A DNA stretch of 64,000 nucleotides from Limnomonas spitsbergensis (Eukaryota; Chlorophyta; Chlorophyceae; Chlamydomonadales), in assembly GCA_037349105.1 (NCBI GenBank), contig JAYJMM010000058.1:558001-622000 (forward strand). Direction: 5' to 3'. A model generated the notes under the pieces. That model ran no database searches. It had not been told where the DNA came from and worked only from the letters and a program-made list of their open reading frames with translations. Position 1 is the first letter of the stretch; every line of letters starts with the position of its first letter. Positions 12,501 through 61,716 of the stretch are shown here, piece after piece. Both the position numbers and the translations under genes were made by a program.

Positions 12501-12637
12501 TCCTCCCTCCCACCCTTCACCCTAACCCCAGAACAGCTGTGGATCAGTCAGCTGCCTCCTCCCTCCCACCCCTCACCCTTACCCCAGAACAGCCGTGGAT
12601 CAGTCAGCTGCCTCCTCCCTCCCAATCCTCACCCTTA
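6515..12637. repeat. 56-bp satellite with 3,457-bp higher-order period (left part)
   Basis: The monomer starts AGAACAGCTGTGGATCAGTC and is 56 bp, with GGATCAGT/GGACCAGT and other variants. Variant order repeats with a 3,457-bp period: 6743 matches 10200, 7458 matches 10915 and 9177 matches 12634, with only scattered substitutions. Since 56 is not a multiple of 3, the + strand reads open for up to 689 codons; these Pro/Ser/Leu-rich ORFs (period 56 aa) are by-products and have no gene structure. The array is interrupted at 12637 and resumes at 61713. Confidence 0.95.
12634..12637. other. Target site duplication CTTA (left)
   Basis: CTTA directly precedes the left terminal inverted repeat and is repeated at 61713-61716 directly after the right one. 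The satellite copy one period earlier (9177-9180) has a single CTTA followed by CCCCAGAACAG, the undisturbed target. Because neighbouring bases also match, a duplication of up to 6 bp (CCCTTA) is possible; 4 bp gives the most symmetric termini. Confidence 0.85.
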
Positions 12638-12677
12638 GGGTACATTTCCGAATGGCAGTAGGGGATCGGGCGTTTTC
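12638..12677. repeat. Left terminal inverted repeat
   Basis: It begins GGGTACATTTCCGAATGGCA, and the first 21 bases are a perfect inverse of the right end. One mismatch, AGGGG and, after an indel, CGGGCGTTTTC are also shared. Beyond about 12677 no similarity to the right end is seen. Confidence 0.9.
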
Positions 12678-15600
12678 GGAACCCGACTCAATTTCAGCAT
12701 GTAACGTCTTTATATGAAGCTTTATAAGGTTTTCGCATGGATGCAGTTCGATTATGTCCCGCAATGCTCCTACTGCAGCGCTAGCTGCTATAAAGGTGCG
12801 GACTCAGTCGAGCGAAGTACGGTACAGGGGGATTTGTGCATATGTGTCGACCGTGTAGGCTATCGGTTTTAATAAATACATTATTGCTGTCGCCCCGGAA
12901 GATTAAATCTCTAATGCTTCATGATCGGCGACGAGTCAGGACATCTATGTTGCCAAGTACCTTGCCACCCAGCTACAGGCCTTGAGTTAATTTAGTCATG
13001 TCAGAAAACCATTGGCGAATGGCGAATATGCAAACGAACAGCACATCGATACCGTCGACGAGCGACAAGTACCACGAGCTGAAATACCTGCAGAATCGTA
13101 AGTGTAGCACGATCCCGGGGCATGCATGACCGGCTTGGCGAATCTCAACCTGGATAGTGCGACTAGCTTGTTACTCACATTGCAGTTAAATGGACGGGGT
13201 CGACATGGGTCTCGGGCGGGGAATACATTTGGCATGCAAGTTGTATGTTGCAATCCAAGACACACATTTGCATACTGTGTGACAACCAACTGAACTTTCA
13301 CTCATGCAGCATGCCACGTTTATGACAGTGCGCACACGCCCCATAAAATACTCAGTTGAAAACTATGGAGTTCCTGTACACAGTCTCAAGCAACATTTGC
13401 ACCCCAAACCTGCACCCCAAACCAGCCCAGGCCTCTTACCCGCGCGTGCCGTCTGTCGACCCTTCCTCTCCCGCCCCCTAACGACTCTTTCTCTCACACC
13501 CCATCATGCCCTCCTTGACCTGCTGGGGGTCAGGGTGAAGCACCTTAGTAGCCCTGGTAAACCCTTGACCCTATCATGCCCCATGTTGACCTCCTCGAGG
13601 TTAAGGGTTGCCCTTTGTTTAGTTCAGGGTAAAGCTCAAATACTACCTGCTGATGAACTGTCTAATCGCACCATGCATTTTGTTACCTTGGAATTTTGCT
13701 CACTGGAATTTCCTCCGTCGCCCTCTCATGACAGCCTTCAGAAAACTCCTCAGTTTCTTTTCTTTCACCTCCTGATGCCTTTGACAGGAAAGAGAGGCCA
13801 TGGTGTGTGCCAGGAGCACCATGTCGTGCACATTGACATCAAGATCGCCCCCCCAGTCCTAGCAACATGCACATTCCCAGCTGGACTACCACGTGTAGTA
13901 CTACCTCAGCCAGCTGTCCTTGCCCTACTTCACACCCGTCGTCTCTCATCTCCCTGCTCACGCGCTCCAGCTCCTCCAACAGGACTGGGTGCTTTTGGCG
14001 CTCGTCAAATTCTGCATGCCAAGCTGCTTGGCAGGCACATTGTCAGCTTGGAACGCAACCAAAAACCGATGATGCTTCGCGCCGAGCCGCACGCGCCGCC
14101 ACACTCTGGGCCGAACGCTCATCTGCCCCACCGGAGGGGTCTCGGTCCCCCCACCCAGCGCTTGCTGAGCCACGGCATCAGTGGCGGCATTGGCAAGCCT
14201 CAACTGCTGCACATTAGCCGTACGGCGACAGCCCCACTTACAGAGCGGGACCGGCTTCTAGGAAGTTGGTGCGGCGGCAACAGTGGCCTCGCATACGGGT
14301 GCGGGCGCACTCGGCGACAACATCTATGCCACTGCTGCCATGGCAGCCGCCGCCACCTTCATGGCAATTGCCGTCGCAGCGGCCGTCGTCGTAGTCAGAG
14401 TCACCGCCACCACCACCACCGCTGCCACCACCGGTCGGTCGGCGGGACCGGTCGGCGCGGCCAGGTATGAGTTGTGTACCGATTTTGTCACTGCCCTGAC
14501 ATTTTTAGCATGGTTGCATGTTCATGTTATGTTTCTTAACAATGTTTCTTGGAAAAGAAATGTTGTCATGGAAGTGTGGAGGTTGCAGCACCCCATTCTC
14601 CTTGACGCCGGGGTCCTTCCCGCAACAGGGTTCTTGCCTGTTGCGGCAAGGACCCAAATGCTTGGGCCCCGGCTGGTCGGCCAGACTCAGATTTGACCCC
14701 ATCGGCCCAGTGATGGCATATTCCTGCCACCCTTGAGAAATGGTCTGGTGCAATCTACAAAACCTGATTTATGTCTCGCCCGGTGGGCATCCCCTCCAGG
14801 TATATGCTGGATAATAATTCAACCCTCAACCCTCCATCCTCAAACCTCGACACGGACCCCCCCCCCACCCCAGGTGGCTGCATGCTATCCTGGCGCCCAT
14901 CCAAGATATTGCGCTGGTGACGGCATCGGGATATCAGCCATCACCGGGGGGCAAGAGGCCACCAGCCTGCACCCATACATGCATTCACATAGGTGAGGAT
15001 GTTTCATCGAAAACCATGCACCATGCACCCATGCGCACAATATCTGGGTGGGGTGGGGTTTGAACATTTTAACCCTTAATCCTGCACCCACACATTTAAT
15101 ACCTGGGGGTAGGGTTTGGAATCTATAGCCCTGCACCGATACGCTGCACACGCAATATCTGAGGGTAGGGTGTGTAATCTGTAATCCTGATCCCTGACCC
15201 GCACACACAATACAGTCTAGGGACAGGTCACAAGATATCATTTAACCCTGAACCCATACATCCAATACCTGAGGGTAGGTTTATCTGTCATTCTGAACCC
15301 TGAACCATACATGTGAAACCTACAGGCCGGGAATTCGACAAGATTTCATGCTAAATTGGGGGGGGGGGGGTAGTTGAGGGTTGAGCAAAGATACCCACTG
15401 ATAAAGCGTCTCCTCTCATTCTGGAATTGGTTGCCCTGGCCTTTGGTACCCTGCAATTTAGCACCCTGGAATTCCATCCGTTGCCCTCTCATGACAGACT
15501 TCAGAAACCTCCACAGCTTCCTTTCTTTCAACTCCTGATGCCTTTGACAGGAAAGAGAGGCCATGGGTGTGTGCAAGGACGCCACGTTGTGCACATGCAC

Positions 15601-16737: not shown

Positions 16738-19700
16738 ATGAGCGCGATACCTTCGGTCGCCATGACCGCGGGAGGGTGGTCAATCACGTCAGACTTCCCA
16801 GCTTACGGCACACAACACCGTCAGCTGGACGTCATGTTCGACGCGTACATCTACGTCCTATTTTATCTGTTGAGGTCGGCCCACGCCCTTAGTGCAGCAG
16901 CAGCTGGGGAGCACCAGACATTTCCAGTTTCCATACTGGTGTGTGTGTGTGCGTGTGTGCAATTCAGATTTGTGCCACGCCTTTAACACCACTCGTGGCC
17001 TCACCTCGTTCGCTCTGTGTCCACGAAGGTCGGTGGAGACACGTGCACCATCCTAGTTACAAGATTGGGGAGTGTTGACATCAAGAGTCTGTTCGGCCTG
17101 CTGACACAGGTAGCACATTTTCGTTATCATGTGTGGACCGGTCTTGCTTGGAGTCATTGCATGGCCTTGCCAGAAACAGGGGGCATGGTGGGATGGGGCT
17201 GGGCAGTGTTTCGGTGCATGGAGAGTGCTTAACTTGCAAATTTGTGTGACCAGTATACAACTTCGTATATGGACCCCCCTTCCATGTAGGAGACCCAGCA
17301 AAAGGTTTGGCAAGTCCTACAATTTGAGTCAGCCGAAGAGTGCTACGGTCGCGTGAGCCGAGCCACGGCAAAGATTGTGAGGTGTAAGGTAGGTGCCATG
17401 CATCATTAACATGCCCAAACTCCGACAAACTTGCATGACTGTCCCTTCCTTTAATCCCCATAGGATGTGTTTCACCAAGCCTTGGTCAGTGAGAGGGATC
17501 GCTTGAACAGTTTGGCAAAGGTGAGGCAAGATTACACTAGAGGGTAATGCCTGTGGGGAAGAGCATAGTGCCTATGCCAGGCTTGAGGTAAGTGTCTATG
17601 GGTTGGATTGTAGTTCCCACGAGATACAGGGCAGTGCTGAGGGGTTGCAAGTAATCATGCCTCCCACATTTTGCTCAAATGCTAAATACATCCATGACTG
17701 GTCAAGGATAGTCACCTATTTTTACTCATAAACTTTGTTGTGTTCATGACAATGCCTAAGCTCTCATCACCAACATCTGCAGGATGTAACTTCCAGGGCA
17801 GAAATCTTCAGTAGTCGCCAAGTCTATGCTAGGCGAGGCACCCCTAGACCTAGTGCTGGGAGTGCCATCCACGAATGGACGATGGGAGGAGATGGTAACG
17901 ACGTCAACACGTCAGGAGACAAGCTGGTAAGTCTTTACCGTCTTCAGTCAAATCTGAGATCTCGAGTCAGTGACACGAGCCATAGTCAGAACAACGAGCC
18001 AGTGCCGCAATGCAGATGCCTTGATGTCCCAATGCTTATGCTAATTCCTGGATGCACCAGTGCTGATACATGGATGCCTGGATACCCCAGTGCTAATGCT
18101 GTTATGCTGACGCTTGGATACCCCAATGCTTATGCTGTTATGCTGACGCTTGAATACCCCAATGTTAATGCTGTCATTTTGATGCTTAGATACCCCAATG
18201 CTTATGCTGTTATGCTAATGCTTGGATACCCCAATGCTTATGCTGTTATGCCTTGATGCCCTACGGCTCTCACCGTAGCCAACAGTCTGAATGTGGTCTT
18301 GTTTATTGTAGGCATTCGTGTCATGGGCAGGCGTGGTTGTGCCGGACTTGACACAAGAGCTTTCATGGACAGGATTAGAGATCAAGCCTCTGGACCACTC
18401 TGCCCACGTGCGGCTGGTCCATTCGAGCTTGCCAGTTTTGGGCGAGGTATACCCTATCTATATTTATCGAGCTGATTTACAATTAGAGAGTCAGTTGTGA
18501 CTCCATTGCTATTTTTATATTTGTATAATACCCGCACACCTGCCCTGATCTCCCCACTGGCACATCAGCCCTGATGTCCCCATCTGAACACCCGCCCTCA
18601 TCTCCCCACCGGCACATCCTGTTGAGGTCTTGTACCGTACGTTCATCGATGCCGAGTTGCCAGCAAGCAAGATGTATGGGTGAGTTGCAGCATTTGTATG
18701 CATGGCAGTATCATGTCATTGCAATGCACTACTTCACTCGTGATGGCATGTACTACTTCACTCCCGCAACCATGATTCCATTATACAATTGTGTGTTCAT
18801 GCATGCGCATGGGTTTGTGAAAATGATGAGTGTGATTGCTTGCTTCAACACGAATTTGCTTCACCGCAACTCTTGAACTGGGCGCAATTCTTTTCTGTTA
18901 ATTTTTAGGAAAATCTCGACTCGAGGCCAAGAAACGAAGATTAAGGATATCGAGTTCCGAGCTGAGGATGTCAAGCGCACCCCCCGAGATTACCTCTACA
19001 CTCTTGAGGGCGTGCAATCAGCGATGGTGGACCATGTCGCTAGTAAGTGGGAGCACACCATTTGATCAACTTACTTTTCCCTACCCAACTTCCTGACAGC
19101 CTCGTACATACAACAGGATTGGATGGCTGATGCCTGCTCTTCATACTCATATCTCAAAGGCTATTGCACACGTCCAACTGCTATAAATAACTTTATGTTG
19201 CTGCTACTGTAGATGATGGATGTGTGTTTAATTGGATGGTTCAGCGCTGCAAGAATTCTGAGGACCTCGGCACTTATTGCAAAGACGAAGACCTCATGGA
19301 GCATCTGAAGGACAAACCTGCCACACGGTGATGAGTGTGAACTGACTAAATTTAACTCGAAGGCATGAAGCCTCGAGAACTTAAAACTACAAGCATGGCT
19401 GCAGAATCCCTGAACTATGTACACCCACGCATGCTCCAATTTCACCTGAAACCATGAATTCTCTATTTAAGAGAGTGCACCCCTGCCTGATACACAGTAC
19501 TGTTGACACCCCTACTCAATCACATGCACCTAAATCAAGGCATGCTCCTCTTTCCCTTAGTCATGTCCTCATTGTGTTTGCCGATTATCCTCTTTGTGTA
19601 CCTTCTCAAATACAGGACATCTGTGGAGACCCTGCTGTACACGCTCATGCCAGACGACATCCTCCAGTACCACATACCTGTCCTTGGCATCACCAAGACC

Positions 19701-22700
19701 AAGCCTATTACCTACGTCTTCGGATACTGTGGTGGTGTGGGCCGGCATGTGGGTAAGTTGGGGTTTTAGGTCTTCAATATTCAGGTGTCAAAATGAGGGA
19801 GCAGTTGTTGTGATAGATTGATTTGCCACTCAAGAATTTACACTGAAATACTTTGGCCGTAGAGGATGCTGGACTCCAGTTCATCAACATCGTGCTGCCA
19901 ATACCCTCCATGCTTCTGGCTCCGAATGGAGGCTTACCTAATCGTGTGGAGTGGTACATGGATGAAGACGGCTCTGTGGATTTTCTGCAGGCAAGTCGAA
20001 CTGGTCCTCTGAGAGGCGCACTGACACGATGATATATGGATTCGGTAATTTGGTGGAGTTCGAGTGATGTGTCCCCTTTCATTTGCCAATGCTACTTCAA
20101 AACACCTCAATTGTCTCGGAATTATGAAATGAGATCCACCCCTACTCTCCGATATTATAGGAAAAGGCGGGCTCCTGGGCTCCTGGGAACCAGCTGCCCC
20201 TTCACAAGGCCAACCACTCCAAGAGTGTGGTGAGTGAACTAATTTATTGTGACAAAGTTTGGGTGATGAAGTGTGAGTCAGAAAGGGTGTATGGCGGCAT
20301 AGCGGTTTAGGAGGAAGAACATGCCAGCTATTGCTACCTCCTGGGATTAACATGCATGCTATTCATACCGCCATGTTCACTCAAACCAGCTGTCACAAAC
20401 AGGTCTGCCTGACAATTATTATATGTGCAGATTCACAATGAAGGGACGCGAATTGATCAAGAGCCTGGTATTTTCGCTCAAGAAGACATTGTGGAGACCA
20501 TCCTCACGGAGCCGACGGAGGCCGAGAGGATTGCCGCTCAATGCATGTCGGACCTCCTCGGGTCATCGTTTCCTGAAGGTTCCAGCGCTGCCACTCTGGA
20601 TTGTGCAGACATCCCAACCCTGCGGTCCATGTACGGCGAAGGAGTGATGGGGCACCTGGGCCACGCAGTGTGCGTTGCAGGTGGCTGGTGCCGTATCAGT
20701 TGCAACTACATGTTGCCGTCCTTCTTCCTCGAGAGGTATGGTGCAATCATACCGTTTTGCACCAACCACGTGCTTGGCAGCTGGTCGGATCCATGATTTT
20801 CTACCTCACGCCTCTATTAACCAATCAGCTCTTACTTTACAGGATCGTCTCGTACGGAGAAGCCCTGAGGCAGGAGCGAGTGAAGGTATGGCCATCATCA
20901 TACAAGTCTCAACTTCTGAGTTATCCCCCATTTAATCCGCTGATTTGTGCAGGCTTTTCTTGGGAAGCCCCGAGGCTTTGAGTGCTCAAGCTTGAAAGAG
21001 ACTGCGAACGTGTTGCTGCATCATTGCGTGGTGAGATGTGTGGTGATTGTTGACACATGAAGCTCCCTATGATGTTGAGGCCGTATTCTTTATTTGTCCA
21101 ATATCAATAATGTGTTCCTTGATGTATACCCTCATCAGGTTCAGGCTATGCACAAAAACCCCGAGTTCCATGAGCAGTCCGAAGGCGATGCTTTTTGTAA
21201 GCTCCTGCGCTTCCTCAAGGCGCGGATTGTGATTTTGAAGGAACGGGTGCAAGCAGCCACGAAAGAGGTGGGGCATCATGGCTTACTATGGAAAGCAAGA
21301 GGTGCTGGGAGTTACTACCCGTCTCAAGATACTGCAATATTGAGTCTTTACGAAACTCTGGTATAATGTAGGAAGTGAAATTTACCCCTCCAACGGTGGC
21401 GCCCTTGACTCCAGTCAGCTACAACAACGACTTTCAAGAGTACCAGTGTGAAGTAAGGGCATGCATCGCTCGAACACTTTTGTCTCGTGGAGCGTGCTTC
21501 CATTGAATTTGTCAATTTCCAAGAGCATATCCCTCATTCATGTCAAGAGCTCGTAAATAAATAATGTATGAGATGATTGATGTCCGTATGTTGCTTGCAG
21601 GTTTGCGCTCATGACCTCACCCTGTTAGGGATTGTCTTGACGTATGGCGGTGATATGAAGGGCAGGTACGGGTTTTCCATTCTGCTCTTAGTTGTTGGGC
21701 TCTGTTCCTAAATATAGTATGACTTCTACGTTGTTAATTTGCAGGCGGCTTTGCCCACCATGCTTCCTCGAACTGCTTTGTGTGGACCACAAGTGGTTGG
21801 AAAAACCAGCAGTGGTGTCCCTCTCCTCCCATGTCCCAAACTTCGAGAATGAGGTGAATAATGCAGATTGGGACCCAACTGCGTTGCTAGACGAGGGAAC
21901 ATGGCGAGGTCGGGAAGGGAGGAGAGTGTAATGAGTGAGGCTAGGGCTACGTATCAGCACGCCCCTGATTATTTTTCTTTGGCACGGGGTTTAGGGGGCG
22001 GCACGACGCCTGATTTGTTTTCTTTGGCACAAGGTTTAGGGGGCAGCACGACGCCTGATCAGCTTTCTTTGACACGGGGTTCAGGGGGCGGCACGACGCC
22101 TGATTAGTTTTCTTTGGAACGGTCCCCGATGCACCCATAACCTGATGCCCCGATGCCCCAACACCCTAAAGCCCCAACGCCCCGATGCCCCAGTGCCCCG
22201 ATGCCCCAATGCCCCAATGCCCCGATGCCCCAAAACCCCAGTACCCCGATACCCTGATGCCCCGATGCCCCTGTGCCCTGATGCCCCGATGCCCCGATGC
22301 CCCGATGTCCTGATGCCCTGATGCACCGATGCACCCTTAATCTGATGCCCCAATGCCCCGATGCCCCGATGCCCCAATGCCCCGATGCCCTGATGCCCTG
22401 ATGCCCTGATGCCCCAATGCCCCGATGCCCCAGTGCCCTGATACCTCGATGCCCCGATGCCCCAATGCACCGATGCACCCACAACCTGATGCCCCGATGC
22501 CCCTGTGCCCCGATACCCTGATGCCCTGATGCCCCGATGCCCTGATGCCCTGATGCCCTGATGCCCTGATGCCCCGATGCCCTGATGCCCCGATGCTCCG
22601 ATGCCTTGATGCCCCAATTCCTTGATGCCTTACTGCCCTGATGCACCGATGCCCCAATGCACCGATGCACCGATGCACCCATAACCTGATGCCCCGACGC

Positions 22701-25700
22701 CCTTGTGCCCTGATGCCCTGATGACCTGATGCCCCTGTGCCCTGATGCCCGGATGCCCCGATACCCTGATGCCCTGATGCCCTGATGCCCCGATGCCCTG
22801 ATGCCCTTATGCCCCGATGCTCCAATGCCCCAATGCCCAAATCCCCCGATGCCCCACTGCCCTGACGCTCCGATGCCCTGACGCCCCGATGCCCTGATGC
22901 CCTGATGCCCCACTGCCCCGATGCTCCAATGCCCCAATGCCCAAATCCCCCGATGCACCCTTAACCTGATGCCTTGATGCCTTGATGCCTTGATGCCTTG
23001 ATGCCTCGATGCCCTACTGCCCTGATGTCCCGATGCCCCGATGCCCTGATGCCCTGCTGCCCCGATGCCCTGATGCCCCGATGCCCTGATGCCCTGATGC
23101 CCCGATGCCCTGATGCCCTGATGCCCCAATGCTCCGATGCACCGATGCACCCATAACCTGATGCCCCGATGCCCCTGTGCCCTGATGCCCTGATGCCCCG
23201 ATGCCCCGATACCCTGATGCCTTGATGCCCTGATGCCCCGATGCCCTGATGCCCTCATGCCCTGATGCCCTGATGCCCTGATGCCCTTCTGTTAATATTG
23301 TAGGTGGATTCTTACTTGGCTGGGGGGATCCACTCAGCTGACCCTGCAATGTCTGAGCTTGAGGTCGCTCAGCTAGAGGGATTTGAAGTTGCGGCCTTGT
23401 ATTGTGGCAACATAGGCGCTGTGTTCTCAACGAGCAGCGCCCGTGCCGAGGCCAAGCGCCACAAAGCAACCTCGACGCCAATATCAGCTGAGCTCGCAGT
23501 GGGACGGCCCAGCGGGCTCCTTAGAGGTAGCCGAACTCGAGCACAGGTCAAAGCTGTAGATCTGCCGGGACCGGTTGGTACCCGAGGGGACCAGAGCTCA
23601 CGCAAGAGACAATGTAGACATGTCATCCCATCACTGGAGGTCGACATGATGCCAGTGGTGACATCCTCCCACCGCTCCATGGATGCTAGTGCGCTGGACC
23701 AGATCAATTCTCTGCTCTACGCAAAGGACGACGACCTTCCTGAGGTAGGTGACAAGCTAGTCCGACTTGGTAGTCTGGAAGAGTTTGTAATTTCTCATGT
23801 GTTGTACAGCTTTGGACGTCTCCCTAAATTGACCAACACCCACACAGGGTGTGATTGTTACCGAGAGCGGCGATTTGAGGGTGGCCCGTCTCCAGAATGT
23901 TACGAGTGTGCAAGGCTTCAAGGACAGGTCCAGTCATGTGCAGCTGTTGCTGGAGAAATCGGGTCGTCCCACTGGCCATTTTCTGATACAGGCCCTTGTG
24001 CCCTCTGACGAGTGAGTGTTATAGCTCGATTGGGTAATCTATAATGCTCATGACATCTAAATATGAAATTCACTGGCGTGCAGGGTATTAGCTGGAGACC
24101 TGAAAGTCATCAGAGATCACTATATTGGGTCTTCGGAACATTCGTTTGATGTTCTGCTGGTGCGACACTCGAGCCTCAACAGCTCCAAGGAGTGGGCTAG
24201 ACTTGCCGCAGAGAACAGAGATGAGCGTTTGACCTGGATGACTGAGATAACACATGACTGCATAATCTTGGACTTCACTCCTGCCTCATCTGCCGACAGG
24301 GTGCACGTGGCAACTGTGGTGTTCAGGTGCGTGCGTTTTTCTCTCAAGCCTTAATATATATAAAATATACCGATGTGTGATAAATAGTTGTAGAGTCAGT
24401 TAATAAAAATGATAATCATAATATTAATATATACCAGTAAAAATGGAAATAATTATATTATAATGATAATATTACAATTTGTTTATCATAAATATTGATT
24501 TATTTTGATCATAAATATGCTTGGTGACCTGGAGAGGGGATCGGGTGTCTATCAGGCCTTTGGATCGTCCTTTCTCTGTCACTTGTCGTCCGACCTGATG
24601 TTGCCGTAAGGAACATGTACGGGACATATGATGCCGAATTGTTTACCATGGTTACATACCTGGTCCTGTACTTGCTCTGTGGACCTCTCTGGACACTCCA
24701 CATTATGGTAGCCAATAATCTCCTGCTATTTCTATGACAAATAGGGGGCAGGATACATCGTACGAGAGCCTGCACGCCATATACAGGACAGGCGAGGAGG
24801 CCGGTCATGTGACGGAAAACAAGGCACGAGATTGTAACATCCTGAACTTGGGATTTTCTGCCAACTGTCATAGCGTGAGTTTAGACCACCATCGTTTTGC
24901 TAATTTAATGAAAGCATGGTCTCGACTTGTCGGACCTTATTCTTGTCTTTAAGTGTCATGCCTAATAATGCAAGACGCCAACGGCTCAAAACTGAAATTG
25001 CTCTCGCTCTACATGCAATCTGATATATCTATATCTTGGACTGTTGTGTGCGTATGACTGCACCACGTGTCTCAGTGTGTCGTTTTTTTTAATTAGGGGA
25101 TACGGGCGGTCCACACTCTGCAAGTCCCGCAATATGTTAACACGACTCTTTGGTTGAGACACCCGAATGCTACTCTTTCTGTGACCGCCTTTCGACCTGG
25201 GTTTATTGACTTGCACCCCCCTCCTGCAACTATCCACTGCCACGTTCTTTGCTTTGCAGGGACAGCATCGGGAGGGAAACGTGGAGGCATACAAGGGGAG
25301 CCGGTCAGGACAGGCTGACGGGTTGGCAAGTGTCATGAACCCTGTGTTGAACGAAATGGCCCGCGTCATGCCCAACATGGTGAGACGCCATGAGGACGCT
25401 TGCTCAGGTATTGGAGAATTCCGATTGCCGAGCTTGCGTATTCCTTTCTCATCAGCGCATTTGACTCGCAATGCTTCTCTCGTTTCCCACATCGACGAGC
25501 GCGACCAAAGTGCTGGTACAATCATCATGTGGAGTGAAGATGCGCACGCCAATGGTGGATGCTTTGTCCTCGACTGCTGCATGGTGAAAATAAAGCTCTC
25601 TGGTGTCACTATCGCCAACGTCAACTCTGTTCATCATTTGCATGGTAGCACGAGCCCAACCAGGGGATCCAGGATGGGTATTGCCTTGGTGCACAATCAG

Positions 25701-25739
25701 TGCACCGTCACTAGGGCTCGCAATATGGCTAGCTCATGA
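16738..25739 (+). CDS. Gene A: 24-exon protein (1206 aa) with C-terminal TET/JBP-like dioxygenase domain
   Basis: My exons: 16738-16938, 17029-17109, 17290-17388, 17464-17520, 17783-17926, 18312-18446, 18627-18679, 18909-19042, 19213-19327, 19616-19752, 19863-19990, 20161-20229, 20431-20735, 20843-20885, 20953-21030, 21139-21267, 21372-21452, 21601-21665, 21745-21853, 23304-23744, 23848-24011, 24084-24326, 24745-24874, 25260-25739. All phases agree, giving 3,621 nt ending in TGA. The intron after 19990 is GC-AG. The last exon holds the dioxygenase signature: 'LTRNASLVSHID' with H1124 and D1126, a 'GGCFVLD' strand, 'HHLHGST' with H1175 as distal iron ligand, and 'SRMGIAL' with R1185 as likely 2-oxoglutarate contact. 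This pattern fits TET/JBP enzymes, which oxidise 5-methylcytosine or thymine in DNA. About 1,000 N-terminal residues are unrecognised. The activity is inferred; the exon model is strong. Confidence 0.8.
18030..18255. repeat. 36-bp minisatellite in a gene A intron
   Basis: About five to six copies of GATACCCCAATGCTTATGCT plus GTTATGCTGACGCTTG lie inside the intron 17927-18311. They are not part of the spliced frame. Confidence 0.85.
21950..23295. repeat. 8-bp minisatellite (T/C)GATGCCC preceded by a 45-bp repeat, in a gene A intron
   Basis: Within the intron 21854-23303, three to four copies of a 45-bp unit (core GGGGGCGGCACGACGCCTGA, 21950-22120) precede about 1.17 kb of TGATGCCC/CGATGCCC. 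Longer blocks with 'GATGCACCCATAACCTGATG' recur at 22470, 22675 and 23145, so it has a higher-order structure. Minus-strand ORFs with the period GHQGIRAS are artefacts of the 8-bp unit. Confidence 0.92.
25260..25739 (+). other. TET/JBP-like Fe(II)/2-oxoglutarate dioxygenase domain (last exon of gene A)
   Basis: The 159-residue final exon contains H-x-D at exon residues 77-79, a hydrophobic strand 'AGTIIMW', a GG turn at 99-100, the distal histidine at 128 and an Arg at 138. Order and spacing match the double-stranded beta-helix core of fungal and algal TET/JBP proteins, which are known cargo of KDZ transposons. Another 2OG oxygenase class (for example AlkB-like) is the main alternative. Confidence 0.62.
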
Positions 25740-25975
25740 GTCACGTAGTATTGATTCGAGCTAGCCACAAACGTGACAATTTGTATGAGAGAATACCATG
25801 CTCAATGGTTTGCCCTTTGATGACCATGGCTCCCCAACAACGCTCTGTCCTAGATAACGATTCGTTTTATTTTCACCTACTGGTGGACATCAATAAACTC
25901 CTTGCAGCGACACCTATGTTTCACATTTTATTACGGTCACTAGTCCAGTGCGCCGTTAGCGAGGGGAGGTAGTGG

Positions 25976-31290: not shown

Positions 31291-31299
31291 GAATGTTAA

Positions 31300-39485: not shown

Positions 39486-39637
39486 GGATTTCGATGGTCA
39501 CTGTCAGTATGCGATGAACGCGATCGACGCCCACGTTGAATGCTAAGAAAAAACTTGACGCCATCACCACTCGTCCATTCTGTTCTATTGCGGACGGGAA
39601 GGGGATGACATACCAGTTGTCGTCGGGCATACACGCT

Positions 39638-48600: not shown

Positions 48601-51600
48601 AAAATATGCCGGCCATGATACTTACACGTGTTATATCCAATGCAGGAAAATGCTCGTGTAGCACCGGGTGCTCAGGTAGCATCAGGCGCTAGGGCACCAC
48701 CGGGCGCTGAGGTTACCCCGGGCATTGTGACAACAATGGGTGCCCAGGCTGCATCGGGCGCCCAGGCAGCTAAGGGTGCCCAGGCTACATCGAGCGCCCA
48801 GGCAGCTAAGGGCGCCCAGGCTGCATCGAGCGCCCAGGCAGCTAAGGGCGCTCAGGCTGCATCGAGCGCCCAGGCTGCAACGAGCGCCCAGGCAGCTAAG
48901 GGCGCCCAAGCTGCATCGAGCGCCCAGGCAGCTAAGGGCGCCCAGGCTGCATCGAGCGCCCAGGCTGCAACGCGCGCCCAGGCTGCATCAGGCGCCCAGG
49001 CAACACCCGGCGATGAGGCAGCGGGCAGTGATCGAGGACAGGTGGGTTTGGTGTTTTCTTAAGTATTCGGGATCTCGTTTCATTACGTGCCATGTAACAT
49101 AAGGCCCTGAGCTTAGTTTATGTGTGGCAGATTTGGGACCTCGTTGTATGCGCGTTATTTGTGTACTCATGTATGGAACGGTAATCTGATCTCAGACATT
49201 TTACGGCATGAAAGGTTGAAAGCAACATTATATCTATTTATGGCATGAATTGTCACACACTTGCATGTGCAAAGTCATTGAGCGGTCATTGTCTACAAAT
49301 TAAAACTTCAGGGTACCTTATTTATATTATGGAATATGCCGGCCATGATAGTTACTCTTGTAATTACCAATGCAGGAAGATGCTCGTGCGGCACCTGGCG
49401 CTCAGGCAGCATTGGGCGCTAGGACAACACCGGGTGCTGAGGCTGCACCAGGCGCTGTGGCGACCACGGGCGCCCAGGCAGCACTGGGCGCTCAGGCAAC
49501 CCCGGGCGCCCAGGTAGCATCAGGCGCCCAGGCAGCTCCGGGCGATAAGGCAGCGGGCGATGATGGAGGACAGGTGGGTTTGGTGCCTCCTCTAGGACTT
49601 GGGTCTCGTTTCATTACGTGCCGTGACATAAGGCCCTGAGCTTAGTTTATTTATGGCAGTAGTGGGCCCTTGCTACATACGTGTTATTTTTAGTACTTGT
49701 GTTTGGAACGGCAATCTAATCTCTAACATAACTCGATGTCAAAAGTGTAAAGCAACATTATATTTGTTTAATCATGGCATGGATTGTCGCACACCTGCAT
49801 GTGCAAAGTCAAATCCATTTAGTGGTCGTTGTCTACAAACCAAAACATCATGGCAACTTATTTATATTATAAAATATGCCGGCCATGATACTTACACGTG
49901 TTATATCCAATGCAGGAAAATGCTCGTGTAGCACCGGGTGCTCAGGTAGCATCAGGCGCTAGGGCACCACCGGGCGCTGAGGTTACCCCGGGCATTGTGA
50001 CAACAATGGGTGCCCAGGCTGCATCGAGCGCCCAGGCAGCTAAGGGTGCCCAGGCTGCATCGAGCGCCCAGGCAGCTAAGGGCGCTCAGGCTGCATCGAG
50101 CGCCCAGGCAGCTAAGGGCTCCCAGGCTGCATCGAGCGCCCAGGCTGCAACGAGCGCCCAGGCAGCTAAGGGCGCCCAGGCTGCATCGAGCGCCCAGGCA
50201 GCTAAGGGCGCCCAGGCCGCATCGAGCGCCCAGGCTGCAACGCGCGCCCAGGCTGCATCAGGCGCCCAGGCAACACCCGGCGATGAGGCAACGGGCAGTG
50301 ATCGAGGACAGGTGGGTTTGGTGTTTTCTTAAGTATTCGGGGTCTCGTTTCATTACGTGCCATGTAACATAAGGCCCTGAGCTTAGTTTATGTGTGGCAG
50401 ATTTGGGACCTCGTTGTATGCGCGTTATTTGTGTACTCATGTATGGAACGGTAATTTGATCTCAGACATTTTACGGCATGAAAGGTTGAAAGCAACATTA
50501 TATCTATTTATGGCATGAATTGTCACACACTTGCATGTGCAAAGTCATTGAGCGGTCATTGTCTACAAATTAAAACTTCAGGGTACCTTATTTATATTAT
50601 GGAATATGCCGGCCATGATAGTTACTCTTGTAATTACCAATGCAGGAAGATGCTCGTGCGGCACCTGGCGCTCAGGCAGCATTGGGCGCTAGGACAACAC
50701 CGGGTGCTGAGGCTGCACCAGGCGCTGTGGCGACCACGGGCGCCCAGGCAGCACTGGGCGCTCAGGCAACCCCGGGCGCCCAGGTAGCATCAGGCGCCCA
50801 GGCAGCTCCGGGCGATAAGGCAGCGGGCGATGATGGAGGACAGGTGGGTTTGGTGCCTCCTCTAGGACTTGGGTCTCGTTTCATTACGTGCCGTGACATA
50901 AGGCCCTGAGCTTAGTTTATTTATGGCAGTAGTGGGCCCTTGCTACATACGTGTTATTTTTAGTACTTGTGTTTGGAACGGCAATCTAATCTCTAACATA
51001 ACTCGATGTCAAAAGTGTAAAGCAACATTATATTTGTTTAATCATGGCATGGATTGTCGCACACCTGCATGTGCAAAGTCAAATCCATTTAGTGGTCGTT
51101 GTCTACAAACCAAAACATCATGGCAACTTATTTATATTATAAAATATGCCGGCCATGATACTTACACGTGTTATATCCAATGCAGGAAAATGCTCGTGTA
51201 GCACCGGGTGCTCAGGTAGCATCAGGCGCTAGGGCACCACCGGGCGCTGAGGTTACCCCGGGCATTGTGACAACAATGGGTGCCCAGGCTGCATCGAGCG
51301 CCCAGGCAGCTAAGGGTGCCCAGGCTGCATCGAGCGCCCAGGCAGCTAAGGGCGCTCAGGCTGCATCGAGCGCCCAGGCAGCTAAGGGCTCCCAGGCTGC
51401 ATCGAGCGCCCAGGCTGCAACGAGCGCCCAGGCAGCTAAGGGCGCCCAGGCTGCATCGAGCGCCCAGGCAGCTAAGGGCGCCCAGGCCGCATCGAGCGCC
51501 CAGGCTGCAACGCGCGCCCAGGCTGCATCAGGCGCCCAGGCAACACCCGGCGATGAGGCAGCGGGCAGTGATCGAGGACAGGTGGGTTTGGTGTTTTCTT

Positions 51601-52646
51601 AAGTATTCGGGGTCTCGTTTCATTACGTGCCATGTAACATAAGGCCCTGAGCTTAGTTTATGTGTGGCAGATTTGGGACCTCGTTGTATGCGCGTTATTT
51701 GTGTACTCATGTATGGAACGGTAATTTGATCTCAGACATTTTACGGCATGAAAGGTTGAAAGCAACATTATATCTATTTATGGCATGAATTGTCACACAC
51801 TTGCATGTGCAAAGTCATTGAGCGGTCATTGTCTACAAATTAAAACTTCAGGGTACCTTATTTATATTATGGAATATGCCGGCCATGATAGTTACTCTTG
51901 TAATTACCAATGCAGGAAGATGCTCGTGCGGCACCTGGCGCTCAGGCAGCATTGGGCGCTAGGACAACACCGGGTGCTGAGGCTGCACCAAGCGCTGTGG
52001 CGACCACGGGCGCCCAGGCAGCACTGGGCGCTCAGACAACCCCGGGCGCCCAGGTAGCATCAGGCGCCCAGGCAGCTCCGGGCGATAAGGCAGCGGGCGA
52101 TGATGGAGGACAGGTGGGTTTGGTGCCTCCTCTAGGACTTGGGTCTCGTTTCATTACGTGCCGTGACATAAGGCCCTGAGCTTAGTTTATTTATGGCAGT
52201 AGTGGGCCCTTGCTACATACGTGTTATTTTTAGTACTTGTGTTTGAAACGGCAATCTAATCTCTAACATAACTCGATGTCAAAAGTGTAAAGCAACATTA
52301 TATTTGTTTAACATGGCATGGATTGTCGCACACCTGCATGTGCAAAGTCAAATCCATTTAGTGGTCGTTGTCTACAAACCAAAACATCATAACAACTTAT
52401 TTATATTATAAAATATGCCGGCCATGATACTTACACGTGTTATATCCAATGCAGGAAAATGCTCGTGTAGCACCGGATGCTCAGGTAGCATCAGGCGCTA
52501 GGGCACCACCGGGCGCTGAGGTTACCCCGGGCATTGTGACAACAATGGGTGCCCAGGCTGCATCGGGCGCCCAGGCAGCTAAGGGTGCCCAGGCTGCATC
52601 GAGCGTCCAGGCAGCTAAGGGCGCCCAGGCTGCATCGATAAAAAAA
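39638..52646 (+). CDS. Gene C: multi-exon protein with amplified Ala/Gly/Gln-rich repeat exons
   Basis: Exons: 39638-39711, 39777-39927, 40185-40629, 40758-40984, 41233-41380, 41564-41658, 41766-41834, 42153-42176, 42621-42716, 43152-43265, 43750-43860, 43990-44085, 44522-44635, 44870-44983, 45108-45331, 45453-45603, 45770-46018, 46199-46288, 46512-46718, then repeat exons 47054-47251, 47593-47772, 48107-48304, 48646-49041, 49376-49573, 49916-50311, 50646-50843, 51186-51581, 51916-52113, 52455-52646. The first 18 exons encode 864 aa in frame, Gln/Ser/Glu-rich and partly coiled-coil-like (45108-45603); no known domain was recognised. From 46512 the product is runs of G-A-Q-A-A with 'GDKAAGDDGGQ' exon ends. 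The donor after 40629 is weak. The 3' end is unresolved: it could stop near 52647 or, since phases allow, splice into the methyltransferase exons at 52998. Confidence 0.65.
42605..44690. repeat. 1.37-kb tandem duplication including two gene C exons
   Basis: 42606-43300 and 43975-44670 are near-copies with an offset of about 1,369 bp. Exon 42621-42716 equals 43990-44085 (two or three residue changes), and exon 43152-43265 equals 44522-44635. The short exon 42153-42176 (Q-L-S-G-R-A-Q-Q) also copies the end of exon 41766-41834. Introns here are extremely C-rich on +, with poly-C runs. Confidence 0.9.
47041..52646. repeat. Tandem exon-intron amplification, 1,053-1,270-bp units
   Basis: Each unit has a 198-nt exon (starts GAAGATGCTCGTGCGGCACC), a 342-bp intron, a 180- or 396-nt exon (starts GAAAATGCTCGTGTAGCACC) and a second intron. 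Unit starts are 47054, 48107, 49376, 50646 and 51916; the last spacings are exactly 1,270 bp and those copies are almost identical. All exons begin and end in phase 0, so any copy number keeps the frame. One exon end (47770-47772) has CAA for CAG before the donor. Confidence 0.95.
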
Positions 52647-52997: not shown

Positions 52998-54101
52998 GTG
53001 TCTGTGAAGGCACTTCAGAGGAATGAAGTTCTTGTAAATGAAAGGCGCAAGCAAGTAAAGCTACTGGAAACTGGCTACAACAAAATAGTGATTATGATAC
53101 AGACTGATTGTGATTATGAAGACCAATCATCACAAAAAGTAGTTATGCTATATTGCTTAGGATGTGCACACTGTGTTTATAGTTTAGGGTATCTGAGTTG
53201 ACATACACCGTCTGAGTTCTTTAAATTGTGGTCCTTGCATGTGTTAAGCATTGATCTCTCATGACAAACACATGTTAATTTCTGTGCGTAGAAAAGTGCA
53301 CTTCAATCTACACTATTCAACAACATGAGTGTCTGTGAAGACTTACTCGGTGGTGGCAATGGGTCTGGCGGAACCTACGGCACCCTGACCCTAGCCGGGA
53401 CTACAGACATTTTAATGCTATGGACTCGTCTCACCATGTTTGACACCGACAGCACAGTATTAGACATCGGGTCTGGCTTGAGCCGGTTTCTGATGCATGC
53501 AATAGGCGAAGGTGCCAAAGCTGCATACGGCGTCGAGTATGATGTTCTGAAGTGCCAAAAGGCTGAGTCTTTGATCAGTATGACCATGAGAAAGATGCGA
53601 GAGGCAAAGAAGGTTGACGTAATCGAGGCTTTTCTACCAGAAAGGAAGCTGCCTATCACCATTTGTGAAAGTGTCAGCAACATCTCCAGCATTGAGCCGG
53701 CGACGCACATCCTTGCGTGTTAGCAAGGTTTCAACGGTGTTGACGAGCGAGCTGTTGGCGACGTCTTCCAAAAGTCGAGGACAGCGAGGATTGTAACCAT
53801 CGTCCAGCATTTTCGCTGGGTAGATGTCAATAGTTCTGCACCTTTGAGTGAGCAGATGGAAGCTGCTATGGCGGCCCGGAGCTTTGGCTTTGTTCGCATG
53901 GTGGGCTCGCCCATTACGGTCAAGATGTCAGGGGGGCGCAACGAGAGGCTTCAGGCTTACACTTTCGCTAAACCCTACCCCCTCCCTCTGTGTTCTACAA
54001 AGGTCTTGGAATTGTCATCCTTGCCTGTCTTCAACAGCAAAGATGTCAAGTCCATATTGAAGGAGCAAAAGTTTCAGGCTGACAAATTTAGGCACCATTG
54101 A
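52998..54101 (+). pseudogene. DOT1-like SAM methyltransferase with an in-frame TAG
   Basis: Exon 52998-53054 (VSVKALQRNEVL..) joins 53292 in phase 0. The second exon reads 'TVLDIGSGLSRFLMHAIGEG' (motif I glycine loop, SAM binding) and 'AAYGVEYDVLKCQKA' (motif II acidic residue), as in class I methyltransferases and most like DOT1-type enzymes, which methylate histone H3 on the nucleosome core. TAG at 53721-53723 interrupts the 'THILAC' strand, but the same frame continues with protein-like sequence for another 125 codons (QGFNGVDERAV.. to TGA at 54101), including 'RTARIVTIVQHF'. So it is a recent nonsense mutation, a readthrough stop or a sequence error. It could be part of a larger transcript with gene C. 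Confidence 0.65.
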
Positions 54102-54181
54102 ACATGTTAAGGCTGGTCCTCTGATTTGATATTTTAATAATAGTGGACCACAAGTTGTGATGCGTGTCTCGCCCTCCTTAG

Positions 54182-56260
54182 CTTCACTTGTCACATCTCA
54201 TGTGGATGCTGACTTCAAGGTGACAAGATCCCTAGTTGTTGTTTATCTCGATCACAATTTCTGCTGACATATATATCCTGAGACATATGAGAAATGACTA
54301 ATCTGAATTCACAATGTATTCAACATATGAGTGGTGCTGTTATGTGATGTAGGATGTGTTCATTACCGGTCATTTCCTTGGTGATAATACTGGGAGCCCA
54401 CGAGCGGGATGTCACCCCTGGTCAAGAGTCGAGATTCCTGACAGCCCGATTGTGGGAAATCAGCAGGTATTACATATCATCCACACGTGATGTTATATTT
54501 CTAACTGTGTTTTGATGGTATGTGAGGATTTAGGGTCGCGACGAGATGTTAAACTTGACCAAGTATGGCCCCCATGAGCTGGCTAACCCTTAGCACCACC
54601 AGTCTAATTCTAAACGTGCATGATGAGATAATAAAGGGAACAGGTCAAACATGCACTCTCTGAAACACTCTCTCAGCCCGAGCGCCCATTGTGTTTCCAC
54701 AGGGAACAGCGGAAATGTTCATCACACAATGTCTCGAGAAACAAGACTTGACCCCATCGGAGATTTTGACGGAAGTCATCCAGCGGTATCCTAAGCTACT
54801 CAGCGATGCAGCACGCTTAATTCTTAGTGCCGATGTGGGCCCTGAGACGATTTGTGGTGCCATCGAAGACTGGGTGTTCCGCAGCGACGAAAATCTATCT
54901 GAGGAAGCAAAGAAAACATTTCTAGCAGAGAAAGCAATATGCTATAAGAACTATGACATCACCAGAAAATCCCTGCAGAGGCTTCAAGAGGTCCCAGCCT
55001 CGCCACCTTGGGACGATCTGGACAATTCGAGGTGTCAGCTCAATGACGAGATCATGAATTTATATGCCCTGCTCCTGGAGGTAAGTTATTTTGTGTCTTG
55101 AATGATTGGTCCAGCTGTCCTTGATTATAACCATTACTCTTACAGGACAGGCAACAACTCAGCGATGTGGGGTTCAACACCTTTTTCTTCAACACTTTTT
55201 TCTTCTCAAGCCTCTCTCCCAATCATCTTGCCACTCCGAAGGGCTACGCTTACGTCTACGCAAATGTAAAAAAATGGACCCTGCCCGAGAGGCTTCGTGC
55301 GGCTGGCAAGGTAGGTGCATCGCCTCTGGGCTTTCATGTTCCTAGTCAGTTATCATGGTATGCATACACGGATGCTTAAAACAAGTTGTAGCACAACAGT
55401 CTCGTGAAAATCATGCGTCATGACTACATGATTGAATGTAACTGATGTCTTCAGGAGGAAACAAACATTCTGAAGGTTGAGAAGCTCGTTTTCATCATCA
55501 ACAACTCCAATAGCCACTGGACACTGGCAGAGATAGACCAGAAGAAAAAACAGTTATCCTTGTACAACTCCATGGATGTGAGTATCACCAAGTATCACCC
55601 TCTGGTTTACGACATGTCTAGGTCACTTCCACCCTAATGCACAGGACTGACACAAATATGTACTCATCCTGAAATTATAATGTTTGGTTACTTGAACGGG
55701 TTATAAACATCGTCACTGGAAGCATTTAAGTGTGTTGCATGATTTGTACATAACAGTTCGGCAAGCCTCCGTCTCAGCGAGACAAGAATGTTTTGGAATG
55801 CTTGGCAACATGGATGAAAGAAGAATACAAGTCAAAAGGTCGTGAGGAGGTTGACATGTCAAACTGGCAACGAATCTTCCCGAAGGTCCCACAACAAACC
55901 AATACAGTGGATTGCGGGGTCTTCTGCTTGAAGTGAGTTGTCTCGGACTGTTGCTTATTGTTTACACTAACTGGGCTTGGTCCGGCCCTTTGGAGTGAAG
56001 GGAGCATGGCCTAGAGGGGGCATGTCATAAGCTCAGAGGCCCATGGTCATGAGAGGTCAGATTATGCGGAGGGGGCAATTCAAGTTGTGTCGATATTGAA
56101 AATTATGACCATATTGAAACATTTGTGTGTTTGTACCCTTTATAGGTTTGCTGATCTGCTTGGCAAGGGCGCAGCCACCTTCGACTTCGGCATGAGTGAT
56201 ATTAACAAGATTCGACAGGAAATTCTGACGCAACTAGTGTGCTGCAAGATTCCTCTGTAA
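54182..56260 (+). CDS. Ulp1/SENP-like cysteine protease (C48 family)
   Basis: Exons: possible 54182-54219, then 54353-54466, 54703-55080, 55146-55310, 55455-55577, 55757-55932 and 56146-56260 (stop TAA). The splice phases agree. 'LNDEIMNLYALLLEDRQQLS' is the family's substrate-groove start. Catalytic residues: His in 'SNSHWTLAEID' (55515-55517), Asp in 'YNSMD' (55575-55577), Gln in 'VPQQTNTVDCG' and Cys in 'TVDCGVFCLKFAD' (55913-55915), so the triad is intact. Family members cleave SUMO-like modifiers, and Ulp1-like genes are known cargo of plant Mutator-like (Kaonashi) and CACTA elements. The true 5' end is not settled; it may begin with the methyltransferase or gene C. The upstream 150 residues (FITGHFLGDN.., ..GAIEDWVF) are unrecognised. 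Confidence 0.85.
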
Positions 56261-58179: not shown

Positions 58180-58355
58180 CGTCTGCCCTGCCCTGCCCTA
58201 CCCAGCACAGCCCTGCCCAGCCCTGCCCTGCCCTGCCCTACCCTGCCCAGCCCAGCCCTGCCCAGCCCAGCCCTGTCCTGCCCTGTCCTGCCCAGCCCTG
58301 CCCTGCCCTGCCTTGCCCTGTCCTGCCCTGCCCTACCCTGCCCTCCCACGTACCT
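58180..58355. repeat. CCCTG/CCCAG pentanucleotide repeat
   Basis: About 35 pentamers of CCCTG, CCCAG and CCCTA. It is the reverse complement of the GGGCA family in the gene B intron, and it is flanked on the right by GTACCTAGCCTGCCCATGG. Confidence 0.92.
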
Positions 58356-60300: not shown

Positions 60301-61661
60301 TCTGTCACGCTGCTGACCGCTGTGCCATCCTCTAGTGTCAGTCGTGCTGACGGCGCCGAGCCGCAGCCTCAAGTTCGTGCGCACGCTGCAAGCTGAAGGT
60401 GAATGGCTGAATCAACTAGCGCTAGCACCTGTGTGACAGGTAGCGGCTACAGGTCAGTCGCTGTCTGACGCAGTTTGCCAGGGATGGCTGATCCCAGCTC
60501 TAGCTCCTCTGACAAGGCAGCTAGCAATTCACTGTACCAATTGGGGCCTCCGGTGCCCTCCCTGACTGCGAGTTGCATGTCGGCCGCCATGGTTGCCGCC
60601 ATGAGTGAGCTGTCTTGCTGTGCTGCTGGTGCGACCGCTGCATTGCATAGAAGCGAAGTCGTACGTACGCTGCCACCAACCTAGCTGTAACGGCTGGATC
60701 TGCTCCCTCATGCCCCCCCAGCTTAAAGCGTACGCAAGTAGCCATGCAGCTTGGCGCAGATGTTGAAGGAAGCTGGACTGCATTCTGCTCTTGAGGCAAT
60801 GCCGCGGCCTGACGTGATTGGTGGCCCACACCACATCACGGTAGTTGGCTGCATGCGTTGCACACCTTGAAGGCCATGCGGCGGACACGCTGCAACGCGG
60901 CAGCCAAAGGCACCTCTCTACCTTGCATAGCCTAGGTCATGCTGCCGCTCTCGTGCTGCATGATGCTACAGGTTGGAGGGATTTGTGGGGCTGGTGCACT
61001 ATTACAACATTACATGCTGCATGAGTGCAATGAAACGCTGCAAATTGCATTCTGAGAGGAGAGATTGTGGGGCAGGTGTGACACCAATACACAATTGAAA
61101 TGCTGCATTAAGTGCGTTTGGGGAGAGATATCCAAGGCATCTGCACAATGGAAACTCTGAAAATTGCATGGGTGGAGGGATCTGCGGTGGCACACTGAAT
61201 GATGGACTTCGCGTCCATCGTGCCTTCAATTTCAGACTAGAAATCATGCCCCCCTTGCCAGTTGCAGATGGTAACGTTTGTGAGACTCGGTGACGGTGTC
61301 TAAGAAATACCTTCTTGTCTTCATATTCTCCCTTCGCTTAGGACATTAAGTAATGTCCACCCAGTTTAAGCTTCGAAGCTGGACAGCCACAGGCCCGAGC
61401 TGGCGGGAGGCTAGAACCTTACAGTCGCTGCGGTCTTAAGAAATGAAGGGCCGCAAGCTTGTGACAAAAGTATGTATTGCAATTGATGATGTGGATTGCC
61501 AATACGGTCGACTCGCAATCCGCAGAAATGTGCACGGCGATGTCCACAATGCCAACACCGCGCAAGGAGAGGCACAGGAACACACAATTGACTTGCGCAC
61601 GTTCGAAAACCCATTAATGCGTCTAGAAGAGACGTGGAATGGTGCCACAGTGTGTCGGTAT

Positions 61662-61712
61662 GAAAACGCCCGGTTCCCCCCACACCCCCTGCTGCCATTC
61701 GGAAATGTACCC
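61662..61712. repeat. Right terminal inverted repeat
   Basis: It ends TGCCATTCGGAAATGTACCC, the inverse of the left end, with an inner block GAAAACGCCCG. It is about 11 bp longer than the left repeat because of a G/C-rich indel (61675-61690). Confidence 0.9.
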
Positions 61713-61716
61713 CTTA
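61713..61716. other. Target site duplication CTTA (right)
   Basis: This is the partner of 12634-12637. From here the sequence equals 9177 onward, including the short variant monomer 'CCCACCCTTACCATTACCCC'. Confidence 0.85.

Follow-up and report, generated by a model that had tools for sequence, protein, structure and literature searches.

The DNA between positions 12638 and 61712 of the window (the whole stretch analysed, 64 kb, i.e., 558,001–622,000 of contig JAYJMM010000058.1 in the 260-Mb Limnomonas spitsbergensis assembly GCA_037349105.1) is best explained as one insertion, one of several copies with the same ends, which likely moved by cut-and-paste through its own predicted DDE-type transposase (probability about 0.85). 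The features that delimit this element, referred to below as copy F, are the following.

12638–61712, no strand: the whole inserted element, 49,075 bp, defined by its terminal inverted repeats (TIRs), target-site duplication, empty site and further copies
12634–12637, no strand: CTTA target-site duplication, left
61713–61716, no strand: CTTA target-site duplication, right
9177–9180, no strand: empty site, the identical target within an intact monomer of the array
12638–12658, plus strand: left TIR, perfect over 21 bp and weaker to ~28 bp
61692–61712, minus strand: right TIR
12667–12677, plus strand: subterminal motif CGGGCGTTTTC at the left end, a putative transposase-binding site
61662–61672, minus strand: CGGGCGTTTTC at the right end, common to both ends

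The original prediction of 21-bp perfect inverted ends flanked by CTTA was borne out at these positions. The ends of F begin with GGGTAC, the TIRs are identical at 26 of their 28 outermost positions, and CGGGCGTTTTC sits 11 bp deeper inside at the right end than at the left. The satellite around the element does have the proposed period of 3,457 bp, since positions 6701–9180 match the sequence 3,457 bp downstream at 2,473 of 2,480 positions. As also predicted, this array contains the empty site: when the two flanks were joined minus one CTTA and compared with the array at 9180, 793 of 796 positions were identical without gaps (399 of 400 immediately at the junction), and identity was 96.9% across a gapped alignment of 4,685 columns. 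The constant register claimed between flanks and array holds near the junction but not throughout, ungapped identity falling to 2,700/3,000 on the left and 1,236/1,700 on the right. The best gapped alignments reach 98.4% (2,686 columns, left) and 94.8% (1,999 columns, right), indicating that small indels separate the arrays. The satellite provides an exact before-and-after view of one 49-kb insertion, an empty site being demonstrated for the window copy F only.

A genome-wide search for the same termini did find other copies, which favours this reading. The TIR 21-mer gave 96 matches (53 + 43) with up to three mismatches in the assembly, versus 2 + 0 for the same 21-mer read backward. Pairing the ends yielded 16 elements of 6.8 to 52.2 kb, eight of the F end type and eight of a sister type that carries a GGGTGG end; ends without a partner nearby were excluded, as were the pairs C97:1123714-1216113 (92 kb) and C99:1150308-1209482 (59 kb, unlike ends). 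Identical 4-bp flanks were found in 12 of the 16, with 12 different words (chance expectation 1 in 256 per pair), the flanks of B, E, C22 and C112 being unmatched. A seventeenth element, H (C36:6179519-6181411, 1,893 bp), was detected with a 12-mer and is bordered by TATC at both sides, but was kept out of the 16 because just 13 bp of its left TIR are left. Besides F, two further copies are of this size, C116 at 50.0 kb and C39 at 52.2 kb. The single insertion of ~49 kb that had been proposed is therefore supported both by the empty site in the window and by other copies that have the same ends and their own, differing 4-bp duplications. Three features of the TIR (cut-and-paste) class are present: TIRs common to several copies, a duplication of fixed length (4 bp) and varying sequence, and an empty site. 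That an assembly artefact or a chance inverted repeat inside the satellite produced this picture is scarcely credible: tandem satellite flanks are error-prone for assemblers, but the same ends are found elsewhere in unrelated flanks with their own duplications, and the backward control gave only two matches.

Copies A (29,726 bp), D (30,602 bp) and E (30,680 bp) share their ends with F, as well as its main unique blocks (95.5–99.7% identity), the repeated units being less similar; D has no counterpart of F at ~38.5–46.6 kb. F covers 99.8–100% of B, C and G and 99.6% of A. Three of the seven fully read copies are internal-deletion derivatives contained in the F sequence.

The best candidate for the transposase is a predicted multi-exon gene on the minus strand, at 36.7–31.9 kb, that is conserved in sister elements and contains the motifs DFAEKF, WSDNCC and GHGKG...DG. 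Its predicted parts are listed here.

36583–36728, minus strand: exon T1, open in A, D and F
35849–36124, minus strand: exon T2, open in A, D and F
35182–35556, minus strand: exon T3, cysteine-rich and open in A, D and F; 46% identity in C36 and C66, both sister loci
34146–34394, minus strand: exon T4, whose DFAEKFQYQ is a candidate for the first catalytic Asp
33779–33982, minus strand: exon T5, open in A, D and F, with an uncertain 3' boundary
33418–33666, minus strand: exon T6, containing WSDNCC and GHGKGTWDGEGG as candidates for further acidic residues
31876–32388, minus strand: stop-to-stop frame with the likely C-terminal exon

T1 to T6 have no gaps or stops in F, A and D, while E has an N gap there. 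When T3, T4, T6 and the C-terminal frame were searched individually, T4 was found open in C36, C66 and C112 with 62% identity across 82 of its 83 residues, and T6 (the model starts at 33624, the homology at 33666) had 73% identity in C36 and C112 and 62–67% in C66. All four are collinear in the sister element C36 (20.0 kb), at 46, 62, 73 and 46% identity, respectively. The C-terminal frame has 32 matches in the genome, including one in each of the eight sister-type pairs, where it lies 2.0–3.5 kb away from the GGGTGG end. The original prediction of several intron-bearing genes stands as far as predictions go: the predicted exons are open and can be linked through GT-AG sites, and four of them are kept in diverged relatives. 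DFAEKF, WSDNCC and GHGKGTWDGEGG may hold the acidic residues of the candidate enzyme. The search for a DDE/D signature gave a conserved gene with candidate acidic motifs and no family match for the predicted product: the spliced 485-aa model had no match in Pfam, PDB sequences, a 5.8-billion protein set or IMG/VR, so that this conserved minus-strand gene is a candidate enzyme named by none of the libraries searched. A 1,076-aa frame at C83, considered as a long relative of the transposase, was rejected as it appears by eye to be a Ty3/gypsy pol ending with the C-terminal domain.

If F does move by its own enzyme, the predicted transposase would pair both ends through the TIRs and the shared CGGGCGTTTTC and cut with a stagger of 4 bp; gap filling would then generate the 4-bp duplication, and interrupted gap repair could produce the deleted copies. 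The least certain step is the contribution of two cargo genes, whose methyltransferase-fold and Ulp1-like products might act on chromatin or SUMO, leading to easier transposition or escape from silencing. Should cut-and-paste hold for copies of 20–52 kb, one would have to ask how ends so far apart meet, and by what means a large element with unrelated cargo evades silencing. That this genome contains long copies alongside short and deleted ones offers ready material for testing the end requirements.

The enzyme might instead come from other elements, F being a passenger in which the minus-strand gene is merely conserved cargo, which we consider unlikely. Several copies would fit such dependence. 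The gene is missing from B, C and G, yet both TIRs are kept, the flanks of C and G being matched, and H still has TATC at both sides with 13 bp of left TIR, a loss that may postdate insertion. C39 (52,171 bp) has matching TTTT flanks and, among the best candidates, no match to T3, T4, T6 or the C-terminal frame, so that it may be non-autonomous. In F itself a premature stop interrupts a different gene, that of the methyltransferase fold. Against this stand the open modelled exons in F, A and D and the match to the C-terminal frame in all eight sister-type pairs, as expected for an enzyme gene.

Descent from a virus that uses TIRs, Polinton-like or Teratorn-like, is very improbable indeed. Size, several genes and a C48-type protease would agree with it, but neither Pfam (114 frames of F and 124 others, 121 of the 181 listed in D plus three of E) nor PHROGs (the 114 F frames) gave a capsid, polymerase, packaging or, likewise, rve match, with the limit that exon-sized frames may hide weak matches, and the methyltransferase and the transposase model have no IMG/VR relative. 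Membership of the KDZ superfamily is highly unlikely: the spliced 485-aa model has no match to PF18758, which we take to be the KDZ transposase domain. Giant KDZ elements of ~30 kb are known from Ectocarpus and Chlamydomonas (PMC12477816, in the part available), but the duplications here are 4 bp long, versus 8 bp in Zisupton and 7 bp in Kyakuja according to the accessible text of PMC12730594.

Among known systems, the 4-bp duplication fits Sola2, for which the portion of PMC3627910 at hand describes 4-bp target duplications, TIRs of 12–13 or 21 bp and amoebozoan Sola2-Fanzor elements with captured genes. The likeness to this description lies in 4-bp duplications, short TIRs and captured extra genes; by contrast, the duplications here are not AT-only, the cargo is methyltransferase-fold and Ulp1 rather than Fanzor, and the copies reach ~50 kb. 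Ginger1 shares 4-bp duplications and, in some members, a Ulp1 domain, and is described in the available part of PMC2836005 as having TGTNR ends, CCGG or CCGT/ACGG targets, a length of 2.6–7 kb and a Gypsy-integrase-like transposase. It was discarded: the 5' end here is GGGTAC and not TGTNR, CCGG, CCGT and ACGG are absent from the 12 matching duplications, and Pfam found no rve in the scanned element frames and spliced model. Teratorn, a piggyBac-herpesvirus fusion of 41–182 kb with 18-bp TIRs and herpesvirus genes (PMC6431247, as far as available), is likewise a giant TIR element, whereas viral genes were not found in the scanned frames here.

The sections of PMC12477816 available report giant Ectocarpus KDZ, EnSpm and Sola-1 families with maxima of 15.2 to 30.3 kb, a Chlamydomonas KDZ of 31.7 kb and a 21.5-kb Sola1 family with a DNA-methyltransferase-domain gene. 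F resembles them as a giant algal DNA transposon with accessory genes, but differs in size (49 kb, with the two others at ~50 and 52 kb), and its transposase type was not matched. As giant algal DNA transposons up to ~32 kb are already published, F is a larger example of a known sort, and it is larger than the similar non-viral elements in the parts of the literature searched. Only tentatively, and with more doubt than confidence, could these copies be proposed as an undescribed giant (20–52 kb) superfamily with a DFAEKF / WSDNCC / GHGKG-DG transposase and its own chromatin toolkit against silencing, the largest known non-viral cut-and-paste family. The toolkit so envisaged comprises a methyltransferase-fold enzyme, a SUMO protease and perhaps an oxygenase.

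The cargo and repeats are as follows.

53325–54098, plus strand: methyltransferase-fold gene, broken in F
54664–56257, plus strand: region of a Ulp1-like (Peptidase_C48) gene, with its catalytic exons at about 55446–55571 and 55754–55933
25329–25736, plus strand: ORF, oxygenase-like by eye only (HID...HLHG...R)
40020–40655, plus strand: 212-aa ORF within a stretch absent from A and E
25938–31283, no strand: 93-bp tandem array, 57 copies

The methyltransferase-fold gene has TAG at 53721–53723 in F, where D and E have TGG. In the Ulp1-like region, the frames 54664–55098, 55446–55571 and 55754–55933 are open in F, PF02902 was detected on the corresponding exons of copy E (E-values 6.1e-9 and 1e-4), and the exon order is the same in C68. 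The frame enclosing the oxygenase-like ORF has seven genome matches. The ORF had no Pfam match, an AlphaFold model of 25185–25736 was unusable (mean pLDDT 30), and a Tet_JBP search of the organism's own genome found no match, the control genomes being equally without one, so that this negative carries no weight.

Pfam at an E-value of 0.05 gave five weak families, none convincing (the best NinX, 0.0024), over the 114 frames scanned of the 129 listed in F with at least 90 aa, and PHROGs two weak families over the same 114. NCBIfam gave five weak families, one of Ulp1 type, over 124 frames. A protein search with the 395-aa frame at 13283–14467 found no match, and we therefore treat it as probably non-coding. 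Rfam gave no match and a tRNA search under bacterial settings detected none. The 212-aa ORF has two other matches at 95–99% identity, in C94 and at C41:3953189. The 93-bp array is longer in F than in A, D and E, and tandem arrays make up ~9.2 kb of F's 49 kb (added up from the rows of Tandem Repeats Finder that fall within the element).

The insertion of a giant transposon in the window (copy F, 12638-61712) is real and well supported. At the left junction the flank terminates in ...CACCCTTA and the element starts with GGGTACATTTCCGAATGGCAG, while at the right junction the element terminates in ...CTGCCATTCGGAAATGTACCC and is followed by the flank CTTACCCC. The terminal inverted repeats are perfect over 21 bp, 26 of the first 28 positions are identical, and an 11-bp motif, CGGGCGTTTTC, is present inside both ends at unequal distances from them. 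The satellite monomer that carries the target CTTA at 9177-9180 has no interruption. When the two flanks were joined, less one CTTA, they matched this monomer ungapped at 793 of 796 positions (399/400 at the junction; 96.9% over 4,685 gapped columns). The original prediction of one insertion with inverted ends, a 4-bp duplication and an empty site within the window was thus confirmed. It had also described the satellite register as constant for many monomers. The period held, with 2,473 of 2,480 positions identical in a self-comparison at an offset of 3,457 bp, but small indels break the register in places (ungapped, 2,700/3,000 positions at the left and 1,236/1,700 at the right). Near the window start, pieces of a Ty3/gypsy pol (reverse transcriptase, RNase H, integrase zinc finger and rve) lie on the plus strand in two overlapping frames (425-2451). 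Near the other edge an interstitial telomere-like repeat (GGGTTTA x31, 63705-63924) abuts the satellite and gives way to other sequence, and two further short runs of TTTAGGG type follow before the contig ends. Judged by this GGGTTTA-type repeat, the host is probably a green alga.

The same termini had been expected elsewhere in the genome, and we found them, with 4-bp duplications of their own. Throughout the assembly (260 Mb, 124 contigs) the 21-mer end, allowing up to 3 mismatches, gave 53 forward and 43 reverse matches, against 2 and 0 for the same 21-mer read backward. Pairing facing ends by position and orientation gave 16 elements, eight of them of a sister type with ends GGGCAG or GGGTGG. 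Sister pairs were picked ahead of reading their flanks, except for the C41 left flank, which was already known. The 4-bp flanks were identical in 12 of the 16.

Paired elements and a short derivative (contig, length, 4-bp flanks)
Window end type:
A, C6:29935-59660, 29,726 bp, TATA
B, C25, 13,555 bp, not identical
C, C27, 10,631 bp, ATCG
D, C41:9060622-9091223, 30,602 bp, TAGA
E, C41:10535036-10565715, 30,680 bp including a 5-kb N run, not identical
F, window copy, 49,075 bp, CTTA
G, C109, 6,775 bp, AATA
C39:735588-787758, 52,171 bp, TTTT
Sister type:
C4, 29,117 bp, ACAT
C22, 10,778 bp, not identical
C36, 19,971 bp, AAAA
C41:868586-895998, 27,413 bp, TTGT
C92, 28,140 bp, CGAT
C97, 25,653 bp, GGGT
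C112, 23,803 bp, not identical
C116, 49,998 bp, ATCC
Seventeenth copy, found with a 12-mer:
H, C36:6179519-6181411, 1,893 bp, TATC on both sides

In copy H, 13 bp of the left end are fused to sequence from ~59830 onward; it may have transposed with a 13-bp end, or the end may have been shortened afterwards. The two other elements of about 50 kb are known from their ends and frame matches: a window frame finds one match in the C39 element, at 96%, and the C-terminal transposase frame finds a match in the C116 element, at 39%. On a single strand of C29 (1437610-1496868), GGGTACATTTCC has nine exact matches, spaced ~7.3 kb (one gap of 8.2 kb), as a long tandem unit that is not among the 21-mer matches.

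A, D and E have in common the two ends and the principal unique blocks at 95.5-99.7% identity, with lower values in repeated units. Window sequence covers 99.6% of A, 100% of B and C, 99.8% of G, 81.9% of D and 83.1% of E; the uncovered block is mostly a 42-bp tandem array in D and the N run in E. Since coverage of B, C and G reaches 99.8-100%, their sequences mark them as internal-deletion derivatives, and by the same figures none of the seven fully read copies is as inclusive as that of the window. Roughly 38.5-46.6 kb of the window has no counterpart in D, 18188-24538 is absent from A, D and E, and 39532-42752 from A and E. These last two segments do not look private to the window copy, because B keeps part of the former and a frame from the latter recurs at C94 and C41:3953189. 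Tandem arrays make up ~9.2 kb of the window copy, foremost a 93-bp array (25938-31283). Repeated units of ~1.05-1.27 kb with Ala/Gln-rich frames (46586-52638) vary in number among copies.

The candidate transposase gene lies on the minus strand. Its C-terminal frame (31876-32388) has 32 genome matches. Five of these are 99-100% identical; the other 27 share 39-49%, and among them is one within a retrotransposon frame. All eight sister-type pairs hold one match, 2.0-3.5 kb off the GGGTGG end, as do A, D, E and F among window-type copies; none of the matches listed in the genome search falls in B, C, G or the C39 element. Six open exons upstream (T1-T6), joined at GT-AG sites, give a predicted 485-aa model with no gaps or stops in F, A and D. 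Searched with single exons, the genome yielded 6 matches in total for T3, with C36 and C66 at 46%; 9 matches for T4, with C36, C66 and C112 at 62%; and 8 rows for T6, with C36 and C112 at 73% and C66 at 62-67%. In C36 the exons follow in order (T3 5835280, T4 5835939, T6 5836988, C-terminal 5839173). Homology of T6 begins before the modelled exon start (33666 against 33624), and therefore the T5/T6 boundary is provisional; additional exons are likely ahead of T1 or in the interval from T6 to the C-terminal frame. Read by eye, the motifs DFAEKF (T4), WSDNCC and GHGKG...DG (T6) resemble an acidic set of the RNase H type. Two DFAEKF exons in opposite orientation (C102:3572004-3589404; 84%, 15 kb apart, one TAA each) adjoin a match to the 25185-25736 frame, also at 84%, and may represent a third subfamily or else two inverted copies. 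At C83:1579900-1583400 a 1,076-aa frame, by eye a Ty3/gypsy pol, continues into a domain like the C-terminal one (43% identity).

Searches of Pfam, PDB sequences, a large protein set and IMG/VR found no relatives of the transposase model, and the family has no name in the libraries searched. In the excerpts compared, Sola2 shares the 4-bp duplication (PMC3627910), whereas the duplication length of KDZ conflicts with it (PMC12730594). Ginger1 was rejected, as ends and target do not fit (excerpts of PMC2836005). Giant algal DNA transposons are already known, with maxima of 30.3 kb for Ectocarpus and 31.7 kb for Chlamydomonas (according to parts of PMC12477816), and the window element is a larger example. 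Teratorn, with a herpesvirus aboard, reaches 182 kb (PMC6431247, in part). The literature searched, which also took in parts of PMC8226300, PMC4455052 and PMC10294476 and lay mostly outside subscription papers and bioRxiv, held no non-viral cut-and-paste element of ~50 kb.

Discrete ends, 4-bp duplications, one empty site and internally deleted copies with both ends were all observed. The minus-strand gene would encode a DDE-type enzyme that moves the element by cut-and-paste with a 4-bp stagger, interrupted gap repair would yield the deleted copies, and the cargo might act against silencing.

Part of that cargo is a protein of predicted methyltransferase fold (269-aa frame in copy E), with two metagenome relatives (58 and 47% identity), no match in Pfam, and 20 matches in the genome, of which the last four are weak. 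The four-row AlphaFold model of one relative, P0002 (pTM 0.59, mean pLDDT 53.5), matches class I methyltransferases, by E-value FAM86A (1.2e-5) and then Dot1L (2.9e-5), both with TM-scores below 0.5. In the window copy this gene is broken by a TAG where D and E read TGG. Ulp1-like exons of copy E match PF02902 (6.1e-9 and 1e-4), and all three frames tested in this region are open in F. The 25185-25736 frame looks oxygenase-like by eye, with no support from Pfam or AlphaFold. At C68:110020-132665 three methyltransferase genes lie on one strand, 10-12 kb apart and 80-81% identical to that of copy E, with Ulp1 exons downstream of both that were read.
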